Source of the DNA: Lycorma delicatula
Lineage: Eukaryota > Arthropoda > Insecta > Hemiptera > Fulgoridae
DNA length: 64,000 bases
Reading direction: 5' to 3'
Assembly: GCF_047948215.1 (NCBI RefSeq)
Contig: NC_134460.1
Coordinates: forward strand, 150,220,049-150,284,048
Under the pieces are notes generated by a model, which was not told the DNA's origin, did no database searches, and was given only the letters and a program-made list of their open reading frames with translations. Each line of letters opens with the position of its first letter. The first letter of the stretch is position 1. The translations under genes were made by a program, and so were the position numbers. Of this stretch, positions 6,181-61,004 are shown one piece after another.

Positions 6181-6324
6181 GTACATCCTATTTTTTGGGG
6201 GAGTTCTTTATTCGTGTTTTTTTAATTTTTAACAGATTTGAAACCTATTTTAATAAATCAATTTCTTTAGAAAGAAAACTTCAGATGTATTTGTTTAAAA
6301 GAATAATCCTGAAGAATCTAATTT

Positions 6325-6971
6325 TTTTTTTTGTCTTCAGTCATTTGACTGGTTTGATGCAGCTCTCCAAGATTCCCTATTCAGTGCTAGTCGTTTCATT
6401 TCAGTATACTCTCTACATCCTACATCCCTAAGAATTTGTTTTACATATTCCAAACGTGGCCTGCCTACACAATTTTTCCCTTCTACCTGTCCTTCCAATA
6501 TTAAAGCGACTATTCCAGGATGCCTTAGTATGTGGCCTATAAGTCTGTCTCTTCTTTTAACTGTATTTTTCCAAATGCTTCTTTCTTCATCTATTTGCCG
6601 CAATACCTCTTCATTTGTCACTTTATCCACCCATCTGATTTTTAACATTCTCCTATAGCACCGCATTTCAAAAGCTTCTAATCTTTTCTTCTCAGATACT
6701 CCGATTGTCCAAGTTTCACTTCCATATAAAGCGACACTCCAAACATACACTTTCAAAAATCTTTTTCTGACATTTAAATTAATTTTTGATGTAAATAAAT
6801 TATATTTCTGACTGAAGGCTCGTTTCGCCTGTGCTATTCGGCATTTTATATCGCTCCTGCTTCGTCCATCTTTAGTAATTCTACTTCCCAAATAACAAAA
6901 TTCTTCTACCTCCATAATCTTTTCTCCTCCTATTTTCGCATTCAGTGGTCCATCTTTGTTATTTCTACTAC
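6325..6971 (-). mobile_element. RTE-like LINE, 5'-truncated copy 1
   Basis: Minus-strand non-LTR retrotransposon keeping only the 3' end of its polymerase ORF and a short A tail (T run at 6321-6332 on the plus strand). The 9-bp direct repeat ATCTAATTT at 6316-6324 and 6972-6980 is the target-site duplication. It is of the same family as 43856-45598 and 55036-55915, and all three share the 3' end beginning GTCTTCAGTCATTTGACTGG on the plus strand (diverged in the 43.9-kb copy). The duplication is perfect and the encoded frame is still open, so this copy is relatively young. Confidence 0.87.
6337..6915 (-). pseudogene. C-terminal domain of RTE-like endonuclease-reverse transcriptase
   Basis: An open frame of 192 residues encodes the C-terminal part of the LINE polymerase, downstream of the reverse-transcriptase fingers and palm. 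Visible blocks are EEFCYLGSRITKDG, KCRIAQAKRAF, RKRFLKVYVWSVALYGSETW, FEMRCYRRMLKIRW, TNEEVL, GHILRH, EGKNCVGRPR and, at the end, LNRESWRAASNQSND. This is the standard C-terminus of insect endonuclease-reverse transcriptases of the RTE-like group. The catalytic FADD and the endonuclease are absent because of 5' truncation, so the copy cannot act alone. The 192-residue frame has no stop, consistent with recent insertion. Confidence 0.88.
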
Positions 6972-7264
6972 ATCTAATTTATATGCGGTTATTTTATTTT
7001 TGGCTGTTTTGGTGTATAACAAACGAATATCCCCTTTTATTGTTGCTACCTTTCAAAAAAATTTAGAACCACGTACTGTATAGAATGTATTATTAATTTC
7101 TTTATCAGAGCCGAAGAAATCCGTTAGATTATTTCTGTTTTACTACCGGATGTACAACTAAGACGAACGGAGCCGGTTTGGTTTTCAACTTTAACGCTCA
7201 TACCGTCATTACTAGTGTATGGTAATGCATTATTTATTGTTATCATCTGTAAACTGTTCGTCTT

Positions 7265-14411: not shown

Positions 14412-15698
14412 CGAGGTGTGATCAAAAATACGGTGAATAATTTTTTATTAAAAAAAGTAATAAGGTTACACAGAATTCGATTTAATCTCCTTCAAAGTAC
14501 TGTCCTTGGCTAGCAATGCACTTATCCCAACGTTGACTCTATGACTGGAGGCATTTCTGGTAGGCGTCTTTCGGAAGGGCTTTCAGCTGCTCGGTCGTGG
14601 CCCTCTCAGTGTCAGCAATGGTGTCAAAACGTTTTCCTTTAAGCACAGTTTTAATTTTTGGGAAGAGCCAAAAGTCGCATGGTGCTAAATCCGGTGATTA
14701 TGGCGGATGTGGACAGACAGGAACACTTTTTTCGGCCAAAAACTCGCGAATGAGAAGCGAGATGTGACACGGCGGTCGCTTTTCTTTCTTTTTCTGGTCG
14801 CTTTCTTCGTACGTCGTTTCGCAAATGTTGCAGTACACCCTTATAAAATTCAGAGTTTACAGTTGTTCCCCTAGGAACGAAATCTCATCGTACTATGTCC
14901 TCACTATTGAAAAAAAACGAGCATGACCTTGATGTTGGATTTTGACTGACGTGCCTTTTTAGGGCGAGGAGATGAACTGGTTTTCCATTGGGAACTCTGC
15001 ATTTTGGTCTCCGGGTCGTAGCCGTAGACCCAACTTTCATCTCCAGTTACAATTTTGGCCATGAAGTCCGGATCTGCATGAAGACGACCCTTCAACTCCG
15101 TGCAAATTGACACACGATTTTCCTTCTGTTCATCACTCAAAAGTTTGGGAACAAATTTTGCACTCGCTCGTCTCATTTGCAATTCATTAGTTAAAATGCT
15201 TTGAACGGATCCGTACGAGATGTTAAGGTCTTCCGATAGCTCTCGAATAGTCATTCGCCTGTTTGAATGAACCATTGTTTCCACTTTTTGCACGCTTTCA
15301 ACTGTTTTTTGAGGTTACTGGACATCCCGCACGCTGCTCGTCTTCAACAGACTCATTTCCGTTTTTAAATCGGTCATACCACTTGTACACAGTCTTAAAA
15401 GTTACATTATCGCCGTACACCGATTCTAACATTTCGTGAGCTTCTTTGGCACTGTTTTGCAACTTAAAACAAAACTTAATGTTAATGCGTTGTTCAAAAT
15501 CCATGTTGCGCGACAGACACGATAAACACAACTTCACTTTAGCGGCTCTGGCAGCTGACCGGCAAGCTCGAAAGTGTTACAACTTGTTCCTGTCTGTCTC
15601 AGTTATTGGACGCTATTGGACGAATTACAGCATATGGATGTAGCGTCGGCAGTTGTCGCTATAAAAATTCATTCACCGTATTTTTTGATCACACCTCG
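14412..15698 (-). mobile_element. Full-length mariner transposon, family 1
   Basis: A complete 1287-bp mariner. It is flanked by TA dinucleotides (14410-14411 and 15699-15700) and bounded by inverted repeats of about 27 bp beginning CGAGGTGTGATCAAAAA. The two repeats differ by one A. Length, TA duplication and TIRs are all typical of mariner. The transposase lies on the minus strand and is inactivated, so the element could move only with help. Because both ends are nearly identical, it was probably active fairly recently. Confidence 0.93.
14482..15504 (-). pseudogene. Mariner transposase pseudogene
   Basis: Start chosen at 15504 (MDFEQRINIKFCFKLQNSAK), which gives the normal mariner N-terminus. 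The domains run in order: paired-type helix-turn-helix (YGDNVTFKTVYKWYDRFKNG), second helix-turn-helix (NRRMTIRELSEDLNISYGSV), and a catalytic region with VTGDESWVYGYDPETK, where the Asp is the first catalytic residue. The frame slips near 15295, so the protein is split there. After 14904 it decays: the usual HDNAP block is damaged and its Asp is lost, leaving PPCHISLL. In the PYSPDLAPCDF motif the Tyr codon is now a stop, although SPDLAPCDFWLFPK still follows. The last coding block ends QYFEGD before a stop at 14482. It is non-functional. Confidence 0.9.
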
Positions 15699-38609: not shown

Positions 38610-40475
38610 CTGGTATGCTGCCAGATGATACATTCCTGCTCTACGACTAGCTGATATAAAACGACGAAAAATATATCTACGTAGCCGAGTATTGGAAGAA
38701 TCAAAGTAATCCGCTTTGCGGATACGGAAACAGAACATATTTTAACGAGAAACGGAATAAATTTGTACCAGGAAACCCATAAGAAGTCGTTATTTAATAT
38801 TATTTTTCGTGTATTGTCTTTGTACACTATAGTTTCCATAGATACTTTACATTTTGATCTTGTTCTAAAAAATATTTTGCTTTATTTCTCTATTTAAAAA
38901 TTTAAGTAAAATTAAATAATACTTTCTGGAATAAAAGAAAGAAAAGATAAATGTATATCGCGTAGAGGTTTTAAACAATAGTACAGTGCAAAAAAAATAT
39001 ATTAGATGCGCTTATTCTATCATTAATTTTTCGCACACTAAATTTTATAATTTATGTTTAGTGATTATTGTTACTGTAATAAAAATATTCTTTATCGGTT
39101 TCGTGAGTAATATATTTTTACCTACGGTATATTTAAAAAATTGCAAAGAATATGAAAATGAATTATCGGAACATCTTCCTCGGTACATTACCGCCTAATA
39201 CTTTATATATAAAACTGGATTAACAGATATATGGTTTCGAGAATGTAGCGTATAAAATACAAGGTTATATTAACCTTTTTTTAATATTATTTATTTAAGT
39301 ATCACTCCTTTAGTAGGATAATAATTCACATTATCCGAATCCTATTATGTTGTATGTATATTACATATTCTCTCATTCCGTATTCATTTATAGTCGTGCA
39401 AATCATGCGGGTAACTTGTTCTATAATCTCCCTTAATTTATTCCGCAATTTATTAAATATAATATAAATTTTATTTTACCTATTCTTTGATAATAAATAT
39501 TATAAAAATATCGTTTTTAAATTTTACGATTGTGTTTTTTTTTAGATTGATTATTTACGAATGTCTGTTTTCATTCTAACGGTAGGATTACGATAAATTT
39601 TGTATGTGTATTTGTATTTTAAAGGTTATTACTAAGCCCCAGGTGTTCAGCGATAAAGTTCACTAATTGCTCCTAACATATCGCATCAAAACTACACCGG
39701 TTCTGAACATCCTGGTTTCGTAAGCGTGATTTTAACGGTGATCTGGCAAACCTAAAGATTACTCGATAGGAAAGAATGGATTCAAGGTTACGAAAAATAG
39801 GAAAACGGTGAGAAAGGACGACCTTGGAAAAATTGTAATGCGAGACCGGCGCCTAAGTTTGAAGTTCATTCTAGATATCCAGATATTTTTCCTGAATCAA
39901 AGTAGGGGCATTTTTATCCAAAATCTAAAGCATCGACGTGGTTAACTATTTCGTTGTCGTCTGGGTTAAGTGTATGCTGTGAAAAAATGTTTTTCTTCCA
40001 TCGGTTAAATAGATCTAAAAGAAATGGATATTTCCTGAACTAATACCTTTGTTCATGCGTGGAATTTGCAAGTATCGGATTGAACAAAACTGAAGAAAAT
40101 TTACTATTTGTTGATGGACAAATTTATGGATCATGTTTTTTTTTACTATTCCGTCGGAATTATGTTGATAAATCTTTATCGGTTGCTATAATTGTACAGT
40201 TATATGCGACTCGATATGAATCGAGCTATTACTGAAATCGCCTTTACACTATCAAGAATAATACGATTTTTTTGGTAGGATTACTAAGGAAAATAAGAGG
40301 GCAGTGGTTTCCGATCGCCTTATCAACGGAATGATAATACGGTATATATTGCTGCATATTAGCTAGCCGATACCATTTACATCTAATTCAGTTAGCTTAT
40401 AGAGTTGAACTAAAGTAGTTGCGCGTACGAATGTTGAGGCGGCTGATTCACAAGCATCTCCTGTAAATCCTGATG
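38610..40475. other. A+T-rich DNA, unassigned
   Basis: About 1.9 kb. 39640-40300 is slightly more complex and in one frame reads NLLFVDGQIYGSCF, vaguely like a pogo-type DDE block. I cannot support a call. 40300-40400 weakly resembles 24850-24950. Confidence 0.35.
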
Positions 40476-41101
40476 CATATTGTTACCACATATATGCGTA
40501 ATTTAATATCGGCGGGCGAACACGGTAGCAACAATGTGAGCACACAGTATACGTACGTGCTATACAAGCATCACTACCTCCGCGTAGATGACCGCGCAGT
40601 TCTCTTACCATAGCGGCACTACAGCCCCACCACTCTCAGCTCCAATAAAACAGTGTGCACGAGAGTGAATTTTCAAATCAACGTCGACCACCGCCTGGAG
40701 AAGATCAAGAAGACAGAAGAACTTCCCTGGCCGCCTTAACGTGGGACCTCGCGGCGGATGCCAACATCCTTTCTGGAGCAGCAGGCCTGGCCAGCACGCC
40801 GAGGAAGCCGCTGGACGCGGACGCTACCTTCCCGCTCCAGCTCGCCGGGCTTCAATCGCCCTGGTCGGCGGAATCAGCAGCAGTAGCCGGCCCAGCGTGG
40901 GATCGCTCGGGGAGAACCGAACCGAACCGGCGAAGGTCGACCGACACTGTGGGGCTCTGGGGGCCACCGCTGCCACGCTGTATTGGGTACCCCTGCCGAT
41001 GAGGGAAAGCGGTAACTTTAATGGAGAAGCCGCAACTCCCCGACTTCGCCGGAGACCAGCTTCCGGACCCAACATCTCTTTTCAGAGCTAACGAAAAAGA
41101 C

Positions 41102-41117
41102 GGCCCTTTTCAGGGCC
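41102..41117 (+). promoter_or_regulatory. Histone-type 3' stem-loop, unit 1
   Basis: GGCCCTTTTCAGGGCC is a perfect 6-bp stem with the TTTC tetraloop, preceded by an A-rich AACGAAAAAGAC and followed by ACCAC. All of this matches the metazoan histone mRNA stem-loop bound by SLBP. At 41138 a GAGCTGTGGAAG motif lies 21 nt downstream, where a U7-pairing histone downstream element would be. Confidence 0.82.
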
Positions 41118-41161
41118 ACCACAAGTTTATGAATTACGAGCTGTGGAAGCCATTCGACAAC

Positions 41162-41176
41162 AGCCTTCTCAGGGCT
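41162..41176 (+). promoter_or_regulatory. Histone-type 3' stem-loop, unit 2 (degraded)
   Basis: AGCCTTCTCAGGGCT followed by ACCA. Relative to unit 1 one C of the stem is missing, giving a shortened stem with a G-T pair. A related downstream block AAGCTATCGATGCC starts at 41199. Confidence 0.65.
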
Positions 41177-41228
41177 ACCATAAGTTTGTGACTACAACAA
41201 GCTATCGATGCCAATCGATGACACAGAC

Positions 41229-41244
41229 GGCCCTTTTCAGGGCT
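41229..41244 (+). promoter_or_regulatory. Histone-type 3' stem-loop, unit 3
   Basis: GGCCCTTTTCAGGGCT has the same tetraloop with one terminal G-T wobble, followed by ACCA. ACGTGCGGTCGAAGCC begins 22 nt downstream, aligned with the GAGCTGTGGAAGCC of unit 1. Confidence 0.75.
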
Positions 41245-41299
41245 ACCATAAGGTTAGTAAGTGTCACGTGCGGTCGAAGCCATTCGGTAACAACATATA

Positions 41300-43840: not shown

Positions 43841-43855
43841 TAATGCTTGCCCTTT

Positions 43856-45598
43856 TTTATTTTTTGACTTCATTCATTTGCTTAGTTTGATACAGCGCCC
43901 CAAAATTCCCTATCTAGTGCCAGTCATTTCATTTCGGTATACATCCTACATCTCTAACAATTTGTTTTACATATGCCAAACGTTGCCTGTCTGCACAATT
44001 TTTTTCATTTCCAATATCAATACGAATATTCCAGAATGCCTTATTATTTGGCTTTTAAGTATTATCTCTTTTAACTATATATTTCCAAATGCTTCTTTCT
44101 TCATCAATTTACCGCAACAACTCTTTACTTGTCACGTTATCCACCTATCTAATTTTTGACATTCTCCTATAGCACCGCATTTCAAAAGCTTCTAATCTTT
44201 TCTTCTCAGGTACTCCGATCGTCCAAGTTTCACTTCCGTATAAAGCTACGCTCCAAACATATTCTTTCAAAAATCGTTTCCTGACAATTAAATTAATTTT
44301 TGATGTAATTGAAATATATTACTGACTGAAAGCTCATTTCGCCTGTGTTATTCGGCGTTTTATATCACTCCTGCTTCATCCTTCTCTAGTAATTCTACTT
44401 CCCAAATAACAAAATTCTTCTACCTCCATAATCTTCATTTCATTTTTCATTTTTATATTCAGTGGTTCATCTACATTATTCCTATTATATATCATTACTT
44501 TCGTTTTGTTCTTGTTTATTTTCATGCGATAGTTCTTGCGTAGGACTTCATCCATACCGTTCATTGTTTGTTCTAAATCTTTTTTACTTTCAACTAGAAT
44601 TACTATGTCATCAGCAAATCGAAGCATCTTTATCTTTTCATCTTGTACTGTTACTTCGGATCTAAATTGTTCTTTAACATCATTAATTGCTAGATCTATG
44701 TAAAGATTAAAAAGTAACAGGGATAGGGAACATCCTTGTCGGACTCCCTTTCTTATTACGGCTTCATCCTTATGTTCTTCGATTATTACTGTTGCTGTTT
44801 GGTTCCTGTAAATGTTAGTAATTATTCTTTTATCTCTGTCTTTGAACCCTAACTTTTTTAAAATGCTGAACATTTTATTCCAGTCTACCGTATCGAATGC
44901 TTTTCTAGGTCTATAAATGCCAAGTATGTAGGTTTGTTTTTGTTTAATCTTACTTCTAATATTAATCTGAGACCTAAAATTGCTTCCTTTGTCCCTATAG
45001 TTTTCCTGAACCAAACTGGTCTTCTAAAACTACTTCCACTTTGCTTCTATATAGAATTCTAGTTAAGATTTGTTAAGCCAATTGTTCTGTGTTCTTCACA
45101 TTTATGTGCTCCTCCTTTCTTTGGTATTATGACAATAACACTCTTTTTGAAATCTGACGGAACTTTCCCTTTTTCGTAAATATTACACGCCAGTTTGTAT
45201 AATTTATATCGCCTCCTCGCATGCACTACGCAGTGATTCTGCAGGTATCCTACCTTCTATTCCACCGATTCATTTCACACCTTTTCTTCAGGTATTTAAA
45301 CTCCAATCTACATTTCATTATCACTAAATTATGATCACTATCAATGTCTACTCCTGGATGTTCTTTGCAGTCGAGGAGTTGATTTATAAATCTTTGTTTA
45401 ACAATGATATCTACCTGATACCTTGCAGTATTACCAGTTTTTCCACGTATATATTCTTCTATTATGATTTTTAAACTGGGTGTTGGCAATTACTAAATTA
45501 TATTTCGTGCAGAATTCAATAAGTCGGTCCTCTCTTTCATTACTTTTGTCCAACCCGTATTCACTCGCAATATTTCCTTCCTTGATTCATAGAGGGAA
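43856..45598 (-). mobile_element. RTE-like LINE copy 2, 1.74 kb
   Basis: Minus-strand LINE with a perfect 11-bp target duplication GCTTGCCCTTT (43845-43855 and 45599-45609). It is 5'-truncated inside the endonuclease domain, and its 3' end matches the other two copies with more substitutions. It is the longest LINE of this family here and the only one with part of the endonuclease. The A tail is short and interrupted. Confidence 0.88.
44376..45590 (-). pseudogene. Endonuclease-reverse transcriptase, RTE-like, broken
   Basis: Reading down the minus strand: an endonuclease C-terminus (45590-45250) with NTARYQVDIIVKQRF, then VDIDSDHNLVIMKC, whose SDH is a catalytic signature of the APE-type endonuclease; a degraded linker; then a 212-residue open frame (45014-44376). 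That frame holds RPRKAFDTVDWNKMF (the first polymerase Asp sits in AFD; family DLEKAFD), VRQGCSLSLLLFNLYID, and KMLRFADDIVILVE, in which FADD at 44607-44618 is the catalytic loop. It ends in EEFCYLGSRITREG. Below 44376 the C-terminal domain continues in other frames to about 43860. Stops between the domains make it inactive. No RNase H domain is seen, as expected for the RTE-like group. Confidence 0.88.
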
Positions 45599-54129: not shown

Positions 54130-56352
54130 CCACGTGAAGTTTTCAATAATGTTTATGATTTTATGAAAAAAGTAGCTCTAAAAGTAGTTAAATTAACTGA
54201 CGACAAATATATAATTAGCATTCAAAAATGCGAAGAAATAACTGCTGCTGCTTGTGGGATATCAAGAACACAGGTTCAAAAACTTAGAAGAGAAAAAATA
54301 CATGATTCTTCAATCAGCATCCCAATCGTGTTCTTTCAGCACGCCGAAAAAGTGTAAATGACGTTCGAAACCTGTCAGTGGAGTGGACAGTTTTGATTTA
54401 GGTGCAGTTAAAAGAACAGTTAATGAATTTCATTCATAGAAGAATGGATTACCTATTTAAAAAAAAAATAAGACAAGAACTTAAGTCATCTGTTGATTTT
54501 TAAAGGTAGTGAATCAACTTTAGCTGTTATTTTGAAAGAGTTACGTTTCAAATGGCGTAAATTGACAATAACAGAAAACCTATCATTCAGAAATCCGATA
54601 TCAGATGGAAGAGAATTAATAGTTGCAGGCAGTGGCTAAGTACAGACAAAGCAATACTACAATTGTTTTTTTTGGATTAAACTTATGTTTTAAGTTCGCA
54701 TTGTTCGATGAAGTCGTGGTCTAATGGTATTGTTGAGGGGTACCGATTAATAAAGGTGACCGTTTAATAGTATTTCATGCTGGAGGATAAATCGGTTTTA
54801 TTCCGAACGCATTACTAACTTGGAGGGCCGCTTCGAAAAGTGGCGACTACCATGACAACATGAATACAGAAAAATCGAATCGTTAAAAATCGATTTCAAA
54901 TCTTCCACCAATGTCAGTAGTAGCTGTTGATAACGCCCCTTATCAACAGCATGATGCCTTTATCAATACAGGCATTGATAAAGCACCAATTCCTAACTTC
55001 AAAAGAAAAAATTGGCTGGAGAACCCATATTCCTTCTTTTTTTTTGTCTTCAGTCATTTGACTGGTTTGATGCAGCTCTCCAAGATTCCCTATCTGGTGC
55101 TAGTCGTTTCATTTCAGTATACCCTTCATCCTACATCCCTAACAATTTGTTTTACATATTCCAAACGTGGCCTGCCTACACAATTTTTCCCTTCTACTAG
55201 TCCTTCCAATATCAAAGCGACTATTCCAGGATGCCTTAGTATGTGGCCTATAAGTCTGTCTCTTCTTTTAACTATATTTTTCCAAACGCTTCTTTCTTCA
55301 TCTATTTGCCGCAATACCTCTTCATTTGTCACTTTATCCACCCATCTGATTTTTAACATTCTCCTATAGCACCGCATTTCAAAAGTTTCTAATCTTTTCT
55401 TCTCAGATACTCCGATCGTCCAAGTTTCACTTCCATATAAAGCGACACTCCAAACATACACTTTCAAAAATCTTTTCCTGACATTTAAATTAATTTTTGA
55501 TGTAAACAAATTATATTTCTTACTGAAGGCTCGTTTCGCTTGTGCTATTCGGCATTTTATATCGCTCCTGCTTCGTCCATCTTTAGTAATTCTACTTCCA
55601 AAATAACAAATTCTTCTACCTCCATAATCGTTTCTCCTCCTATTTTCACATTCAGTGGTCCATCTTTGTTATTTGTACTATATTTCATTACTTTTGTTTT
55701 GTTCTTGTTTATTTTCATGCGATAGTTCTTGCGTAGGACTTCATCTATGCCGTTCATTGTTTCTTCTAAATCCTTTTTACTCTCGGCTAGAATTACTATA
55801 TCATCAGCAAATCGTAGCATCTTTATCTTTTCACCTTGTACTGTTACTCCGAAACTAAATTGTTCTTTAACATCATTAACTGCTAGTTCCATGTAAAGAT
55901 TAAAAAGTAACGGAGATATTCCTTATAGTTAAAAAATTCTGAAACCACAGTTATATGAATCAGTAAAGTTACATAAAAATAAAATACAAAAATACTACTT
56001 GGATGAACTTTTGAAAAAACATGGGCATCGTGTTCTTAGACTCCCACCGTACTATTTTGATTTGAATCCGATCGACGTGGTATGGTCAGCCGTATAAATA
56101 AATGTGGCTAGTAATAACACAACATCTTCTTTCATAAATGTTGGACATTTAACTACGGAGAAAATTAATCCCATGAATGAAGATGACTGGCAAAATTGTG
56201 AAAAAGTAAAACATATTGAAAAAGAATATGAAAAACTGGAACCACTGATAGATGAAATGACAGAACGTTATATTATATGTGTAGACTCTGATAGTGAAAG
56301 TGACAGTGATTCGTTTAGCGAGGATGGTGAACTTGCTAGAAGTTTGAATTAG
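54130..56352 (+). pseudogene. Tc1-like transposase pseudogene split by LINE
   Basis: N-terminus: VALKVVKLTDDKYIISIQKC followed by EEITAAACGISRTQVQKLRR, a helix-turn-helix (54163-54300). Then decayed segments (LRFKWRKLTITENLS near 54540-54585; KGDRLIVFHAGG near 54752-54790; FIPNALLTWRAASKSGDYHD at 54796-54855). The second catalytic Asp is in VVAVDNAPYQQHDAF (54914-54960). The LINE follows. Then comes YESVKLHKNKIQKYYLDELL, the block HGHRVLRLPPYYFDLNPIDV, where the usual NPIE Glu is Asp, and an acidic/Ser-rich tail SDSESDSDSFSEDGE ending at 56352. Stops at several places; non-functional. The same family is represented by 11795-12351. Confidence 0.82.
55036..55915 (-). mobile_element. RTE-like LINE copy 3, nested in transposase
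   Basis: Minus-strand 5'-truncated LINE with a perfect 9-bp target duplication ATATTCCTT (55027-55035 and 55916-55924). The two open segments encode reverse transcriptase palm (55892-55557, KMLRFADDIVILAESKKDLE) and the C-terminal domain (55509-55126, RKRFLKVYVWSVALYGSETW onward), separated by a frameshift near 55550. About 95 percent or more identical by eye to copy 1 in the shared part, so both came from one recently active source. Confidence 0.92.
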
Positions 56353-59984: not shown

Positions 59985-61004
59985 AAATGCAAATAATCGA
60001 TGAATTTAAAAAAAGGAGGTAAGAAAAAAGATTGCAATTCTTTTCGGTAAACTGACGAATTGTCGTTCCACAACATTAGAAAATAAAGCTTCTATTAAAA
60101 AACACTAAATTTTTCTGATTTTCAAGTTAGTACCGGTCGACTTGAGTTTAAATTTCGGCTGCTCTTGTACAAAAGTTTTATGCGGCGAGGGTGCCGATTT
60201 GAAAGAGGAATGTATAACACGGAATGAAAACATCTTGCGTACCCTGGTGCTTGAATACAATGAAAATGATATTTTTAACACCAATGAGACTGGGTTGTTT
60301 TTTAAACGCCTTTCAAACAAAACGTTAGCTTTTAAGAATGAAAAATATTTCGGTGGAAAGTACAACAAAGAGAAGGTTACTGCAACGGTAAGTTCCCAAC
60401 GACCGCCACTGAGAAGCTCAAACTTTAGTAATCGGAAAGTCTCAGGACCTCCTTGATTTAAAGGCATCAGTTCGTTAGAGATAGATTACGATTGCAACAG
60501 AAAAACTTAGATGACGGCTGAAATTTATACAAAATGGTTATCAAAATTTGATGTTGAGACGTCAAGACAAAACCTATAATTCTGTTATTTATTTATAACT
60601 GCCCGGCCCGTCCCCGGCGTGTAAATGTAAACATAAAATCTGTAACTGTCGCTTACTTTCCGCTAGGTATGGCTTCAAAACTACAACCGATAGACCAAGG
60701 TATAATTAAAAGTTTAAAAGTTCACTACAGAAAACGAATTCTAATGAAGGTTTTTAAAGCTATCGATGACAATATTCCGGCTAAAAATTTAATAACTTTA
60801 AAAGAATGTACTGCTGAAATATTTAAAGCGCGGTCTCATGATGCAACCCCGAAACGATTTCAAAAAGCCGGGTTAAGTAAGAACGAGACAGTAACAGCCA
60901 CCAGTAACAATTTTACAACTGAAGGTGTAAATGAATTTGAAATTCCAGAATCTGTTGCTTATAACCGGAGTAAATTACAAAGCAACACGGAATTAAAATT
61001 GTAG
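59985..61004 (+). pseudogene. Tigger transposase pseudogene
   Basis: Plus strand, downstream of the nested LINE. KMQIIDEFKK near 59986 is the start of the helix-turn-helix. CENP-B-type domain end: GRLEFKFR and, after a shift, LCGEGADLKEECITRNENIL. DDE_1: NDIFNTNETGLFFKRLSNKT, where the first catalytic Asp of NxDETG is Asn; KEKVTATV; after decay, IYNCPARPRRVNVNIKSVTV (about 60592-60650), where the second catalytic Asp of IDNCPAHP is Tyr; then MASKLQPIDQGIIKSLKVHY (60669 onward) and YRKRILMKVFKAIDDN. The C-terminus ends at 61004. Two of the three catalytic acids are visibly lost, besides frameshifts. Confidence 0.87.

Follow-up and report, generated by a model that had tools for sequence, protein, structure and literature searches.

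Histone-type hairpins are a hallmark of replication-dependent histone mRNAs. In a 64,000-nucleotide stretch of the Lycorma delicatula genome (C6:150220049-150284048 of a 2.20 Gb assembly of 14 contigs; hereafter the window), hairpins of this kind stand in tandem inside the LTR of a mobile element, which raises the question of what such a signal could be doing in transposon RNA and how it came to be there. The initial annotation had described three tandem stem-loops, the middle one degraded, at the end of a putative solo LTR. All three are present (SL1, SL2 and SL3 in Table 1), and a fourth hairpin, SL0, which had been missed, precedes them.

Table 1. Features of the window LTR and its hairpin array (window coordinates)
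Feature	Position	Strand	Remarks
Solo LTR of Ty3/gypsy-type element	40481..41292	+	ends TGTTACC/GGTAACA; flanks ATAT / ACAT
AATAAA, predicted poly(A) signal	40644..40649	+	
Remnant of LTR-encoded Gag-like frame start, broken in window copy	40669..41088	+	open in other copies
SL0, ATCTCT-TTTC-AGAGCT in window	41074..41089	+	5/6 pairs here; 6/6 in many copies
SL1, GGCCCTTTTCAGGGCC, then ACCAC	41102..41117	+	identical to host histone H1/H3 hairpin
Second hairpin of unit 1, GTGGAA-GCCA-TTCGAC	41143..41158	+	5/6 pairs; by eye, outside the 67 counted sites
SL2, shortened, AGCCTT-CTC-AGGGCT, then ACCAT	41162..41176	+	
SL3, GGCCCTTTTCAGGGCT, closing G-U, then ACCAT	41229..41244	+	
AAGGTT, core as in host histone downstream element	41250..41255	+	5 nt after SL3
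Second hairpin of unit 3, GTCGAA-GCCA-TTCGGT	41273..41288	+	

The hairpins in the window LTR are genuine. A 20-base pattern derived from them, with up to three mismatches allowed, matched twice in the window against 0.02 matches expected from shuffles, and the base composition predicts about 4e-6 exact copies of either host histone 16-mer on the two strands of the window. Together with the synonymous and Markov shuffles described below, these figures led us to reject a chance origin. Generic 6-bp hairpins with a similar loop and a nearby CCA or ACC, counted as a loose control at 5/6 pairs or better, are common in the window (nine on the plus strand and five on the minus strand), so that the rare thing is the sequence match and not the hairpin as such. 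The Rfam model RF00032 gave 27.0 bits for SL1 (E 3.8e-5 over 1.2 kb) and 21.1 bits for SL3, both below the gathering cut-off of 34, and a gathering-mode scan of the whole window listed no match.

The window LTR, 812 bp long and of the TG...CA type, is a decayed copy whose flanks agree at three of four bases. A genome search with the 812-bp LTR, as the initial annotation had proposed, gave 3986 first-look candidates in 2.2 Gb, and the 40 of them that were scored are 78-83% identical to the window LTR, the window itself excepted; a random 201 kb of contig C1 contained no LTR match. We fetched 38 loci, representing 39 of the 40 scored matches (C9:5537785 was left out). The hairpin table and the AATAAA count cover all 38, the alignment and the diversity counts the first 18, and the Rfam scoring 14 of these 18. 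The 18 aligned copies, with LTRs of 809-871 bp, are on average 86% alike, and the family is therefore old. Most of the 38 loci start at or near TGTTACC, and many finish with GGCGACA or a near form. Both ends are readable in 23 of the 38, where the target duplications agree at 4/4 bases in ten loci and at 3/4 in another ten; a control pairing flanks from different copies gave 22% with 4/4 and 59% with at least three, targets being AT-rich. Among the 12 loci whose left flank is not ATAT, four are exact (ATCT, AGAT, TTGC and AAAT) and are clear duplications.

Beyond the LTR, loci L055 and L048 continue into a primer-binding site, TGGCGCCCAACGTGGGGC and TGGCCCCCAACGTGGGGC, respectively, the latter one mismatch off; we take TGGCGCCCAACGTGGGGC to be of the tRNA-Lys type. 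Behind two copies, Pfam matches to reverse transcriptase and RNase H exceed the cut-offs (PF00078, 3.6e-7; PF17919, 1.7e-8), and matches to capsid and integrase lie below them (PF19259, 0.0015; PF03732, 0.009; PF00665, 5e-4). These Ty3-type domains are distributed across two broken copies, with no single intact element. The 4-bp duplications, the primer-binding site and the Ty3-type pieces behind two copies identify the family as a Ty3/gypsy-type LTR retrotransposon and bear out the LTR that had been suspected. In the other fetched loci, no primer-binding site was found within the bases read behind the LTR, and from these short inspected flanks they look like solo LTRs. One locus, L034 (C5:44765650-44767900), was considered as the LTR pair of a full-length element and rejected; it is a tandem duplication of 1153 bp in which an LTR copy is included together with its flanks.

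The window contains several other repeats. The left flank of the LTR (40420-40480) resembles 12567-12506 on the minus strand, about 85-89% alike, with the likeness ending at the LTR border; judging from this likeness, the LTR may sit inside or adjoin another repeat. Three related stretches on the minus strand (6322-6979, 43851-45023 and 55032-55918; 84-96% alike) are likely to represent a retroelement family without LTRs, and 44376-45023 (minus strand) carries a reverse transcriptase domain (PF00078). A stretch at 14904-15576 (minus strand) looks by eye like a mariner-type transposase, with weak Pfam helix-turn-helix matches in 14904-15314 only, and 60109-61004 (plus strand) holds a DDE_1 domain (PF03184) at 60558-61001.

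The other copies show how the array is built. In many of them, SL0 (AGCTCT-TCTC-AGAGCT) is followed 28 nt on by SL1 (GGCCCT-TTTC-AGGGCC), SL2 (AGCCCT-TCTC-AGGGCT) comes 63 nt after SL1, and SL3 (GGCCCT-TTTC-AGGGCC/T) 69 nt after SL2. By template match, with no more than 4/16 mismatches, SL0 and at least one further hairpin are present in 38/38 loci, a count that is partly ascertainment, since loci were picked by likeness to the window copy, and that includes some poorly paired hairpins (SL0 of L052 has 2/6 pairs). There are three repeat units in 25 loci, two in nine (L056 possibly being cut short instead) and one in four. The units contain a second hairpin, GTCGAA-GCCA-TTCGAC, inside what the initial annotation had noted as a related downstream block; among 67 sites picked by YGAAGCC, 29 form six pairs and 31 form five, a count made with no shuffled control. 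Variation among the commonest forms of SL0-SL3 is confined to pairs 1 and 4 and loop base 2, with the second-pair G constant. These forms retain the 3′ A, and one base separates their 5′ adenines from the stem (AAC-), an arrangement shared with host H2A, H2B, H3 and H4. The second-pair G, the A-rich 5′ flank and the 3′ ACCA of the histone signal are all found, except that SL0 is followed by AACG.

The copies carry no sign of selection on the array. Among the 18 aligned, the four hairpins have a diversity of 0.09-0.14 (the SL0 interval beginning one base left of the hairpin) versus 0.11-0.14 for the spacers, and codon phases show no consistent difference in diversity. The compared copies decay neutrally and reflect the source element rather than selection on the array; hence stem conservation across copies, which had been suggested as a check, cannot decide the matter.

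The host's own histone genes provide the most direct comparison. For H4, 16 matches identical to the query cluster on C1, and a five-gene histone repeat, L066 (C1:344553800-344562500), supplied all five host 3′ ends. In this repeat the hairpin of H1 and H3 is GGCCCTTTTCAGGGCC, with the loop TTTC, and that of H2A, H2B and H4 is GGCCCTTTTAAGGGCC, with the loop TTTA. In 5/5 genes, a downstream element RAGGTT (GAGGTT or AAGGTT) lies 12-14 nt past the hairpin, so that GAGCTGT, which the initial annotation had read as the U7 element, has to be abandoned. SL1 and the host H1/H3 hairpin agree at 16/16 bases, and the flanks match too, which upholds the histone type assigned to SL1. One copy, L028, agrees with the 3′ end of host H2A at 25/26 bases (AAAAC-hairpin-ACCAT, E 1e-6), one of the 25 matches being contributed by its loop TTTA, where other copies have TTTC. 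The LTR copies reach 30.6 bits with RF00032, versus 21.5-35.1 bits for the five host genes. The A-U closing pair and UCUC loop of SL0 and SL2 have no counterpart in the L066 histone genes. In host U7, the Sm site, AATTTGTCT, would be expected behind a stretch complementary to RAGGTT. Following the LTR hairpins, RAGGTT is found at 5 nt in 64/103 cases, at 4 nt in 1/103 and at 12-14 nt in 0/103; by this measure the AAGGTT of the LTR appears to stand 7-9 nt too close for a U7 element at its working distance. A search for host U7 with RF00066 gave no match at E<=0.001 and was uninformative, as 14 control genomes were likewise without a match.

The array also falls within a Gag-like frame. Open frames of 219 aa and 272 aa occur in the LTRs of L040 and L038, respectively, in a generally stop-poor sequence where other frames reach 232 aa on the plus strand and 151 aa on the minus strand. 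In L064 and L065 no stop interrupts the frame across the LTR end and the primer-binding site, and it runs on into a capsid piece of the Ty3 type, so that the start of Gag is LTR-encoded and the units repeat in codon phase. This arrangement spans L064:3504-4001 and L065:3198-4001 (minus strand); in L065 the start of gag is joined to a piece of integrase, probably through an internal deletion. No protein relatives were found at E<=1e-3 for the LTR-encoded frame among 919 candidates, nor for the gag-integrase piece among 253. When the codons of L028 were shuffled synonymously with the protein kept, four perfect hairpins arose in 0/20,000 sequences and three once, SL0 forming in 1.4% and SL1 in 1.6%; of 20,000 Markov sequences, 3 contained three hairpins and 0 contained four. 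As SL1-SL3 are one coding repeat, with usual spacings that are multiples of three, they have a single origin, and the synonymous shuffle overstates their independence.

The explanation that we tentatively prefer, while giving it somewhat less than an even chance, is that the array in the LTR-encoded Gag leader mimics the histone hairpin and provides likely SLBP sites in element RNA, without cleavage. The minimal human SLBP site is described in PMC10388802 as the hairpin preceded by two adenines and followed by one, G7 (the second-pair guanine) being required. Host SLBP would bind the element hairpins, and several units would increase its occupancy. According to the mammalian-extract insertion experiments reported in PMC7026596, the distance between the element and the cut made by mammalian U7 is fixed. 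As the LTR AAGGTT is too near, U7 is predicted not to cleave, which would leave the RNA intact and let it travel in the histone mRNP; a failed cut at the shortened LTR spacer would be an extrapolation from these mammalian data. Bound SLBP would lend the Gag/genomic RNA a histone-mRNA-like, S-phase- and oocyte-linked stability, export or translation. Polyadenylation would proceed in the ordinary way, via AATAAA in the 3′ LTR, leaving the hairpins close to the 5′ end of a polyadenylated RNA. This position counts against SLBP mimicry, as histone hairpins act at the 3′ end of the RNA. The neutral decay of the compared copies, the single origin of SL1-SL3 and the closing pair and loop of SL0 and SL2 also weigh against it. 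A more specific history, in which the element captured a host histone hairpin, multiplied it and shortened the U7 spacer, so that its RNA binds SLBP uncut and is tied to S phase and the germ line, is conceivable but somewhat more doubtful.

Alternatively, the hairpins might form part of a retroviral-type leader that the element's own Gag recognises as a signal for packaging, dimerisation or reverse transcription, with the histone likeness arising by convergence. Such a role would suit hairpins that adjoin the primer-binding site in 2/2 copies with internal sequence, units that range in number from one to three, and a second hairpin with five or six pairs at 60/67 of the YGAAGCC sites (a proportion with no shuffled control). 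However, it leaves unexplained the 16/16 match to the host histone hairpin together with its matching flanks, and we consider it unlikely.

A somewhat lower probability still is given to a histone-type 3′ end, the pathway that the initial annotation had proposed, in which SLBP and U7 would direct a cut after a hairpin in the 3′ LTR, yielding non-polyadenylated, S-phase-linked RNA with a very long R. SL1-SL3 lie inside the LTR, 48-190 nt from its end, where 3′ ends must form, and ACCA plus the host AAGGTT core come after the hairpin. Against this, the AAGGTT stands at 5 nt rather than 12-14, and the cut distance of mammalian U7 is reported as fixed (PMC7026596). An AATAAA lies within LTR 131-230, far upstream of the hairpins, in 35/38 copies, so that RNA ending solely at the hairpins is not the default, and gag would be cut short by the copy of this hairpin signal in the 5′ LTR. 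Of that proposal, the hairpin match has thus held, whereas the spacing of the downstream element and the upstream AATAAA speak against adoption of the pathway.

That the hairpins are codon-use by-products of a Gag repeat (about 21-23 residues) kept for its protein is the least probable reading, since the long open frames through the repeats (their length tempered by that of the other frames), the frame that in L064 and L065 continues past the end of the LTR and over the primer-binding site, and spacings in multiples of three would fit it, but the synonymous shuffles never reproduce all four hairpins, SL0 is in a codon phase different from that of the other hairpins, the flanks also match the histone site, and the closing pair alters on both sides between units (G-C in SL1, A-T in SL2, G-T in SL3), with the change from SL1 to SL2 made despite its amino-acid cost.

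If SLBP mimicry is the right explanation, a near-exact tandem copy of the histone hairpin in the LTR of a mobile element would mean that the histone pathway is open to parasitism. It would also be a natural case in which SLBP binding is uncoupled from U7 cleavage, and the fate of transposon RNA would be tied to DNA replication.

Within open-licence PMC text, none of the titles among the matches listed concerned an LTR element with a histone hairpin, and two pattern scans of viral contigs gave 4 and 0 matches, the 4 being taken as chance. In the case of Ty1 of yeast, the gag frame also begins in the LTR and crosses the primer-binding site, as in the present element; Ty1 belongs to another group, Ty1/copia, and is not known to carry histone-type hairpins. 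The Osvaldo lineage of Ty3/gypsy elements is described in PMC3286476 as having LTRs of 997-2055 bp, a tRNA-Lys primer and mostly 4-bp duplications, its woot relatives having unusually short LTRs. By this description, and not by phylogeny, the present family has in common with Osvaldo a long LTR, 4-bp duplications, the TGGCGCCCAACGTGGGGC primer-binding site and Ty3-type domains, whereas its LTR is shorter (809-871 bp in 18 copies); the excerpted text of PMC3286476 names no histone hairpin. SLBP has been reported on the frameshift RNA of SARS-CoV-2 in PMC12166091, where SLBP work on HIV-1 is also cited; that case is alike in placing SLBP on the coding part of a non-histone RNA, with copying of the histone hairpin not stated in the excerpted text. 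Another close known system is the histone mRNA 3′ stem-loop (RF00032) itself, with which the LTR hairpins share the stem, the loop, the A-rich 5′ flank and the 3′ ACCA, SL1 having the sequence of the host H1/H3 hairpin. They differ from it in lying in an LTR and a gag frame, in tandem, with a downstream element that is too close and with sub-gathering scores in the window.
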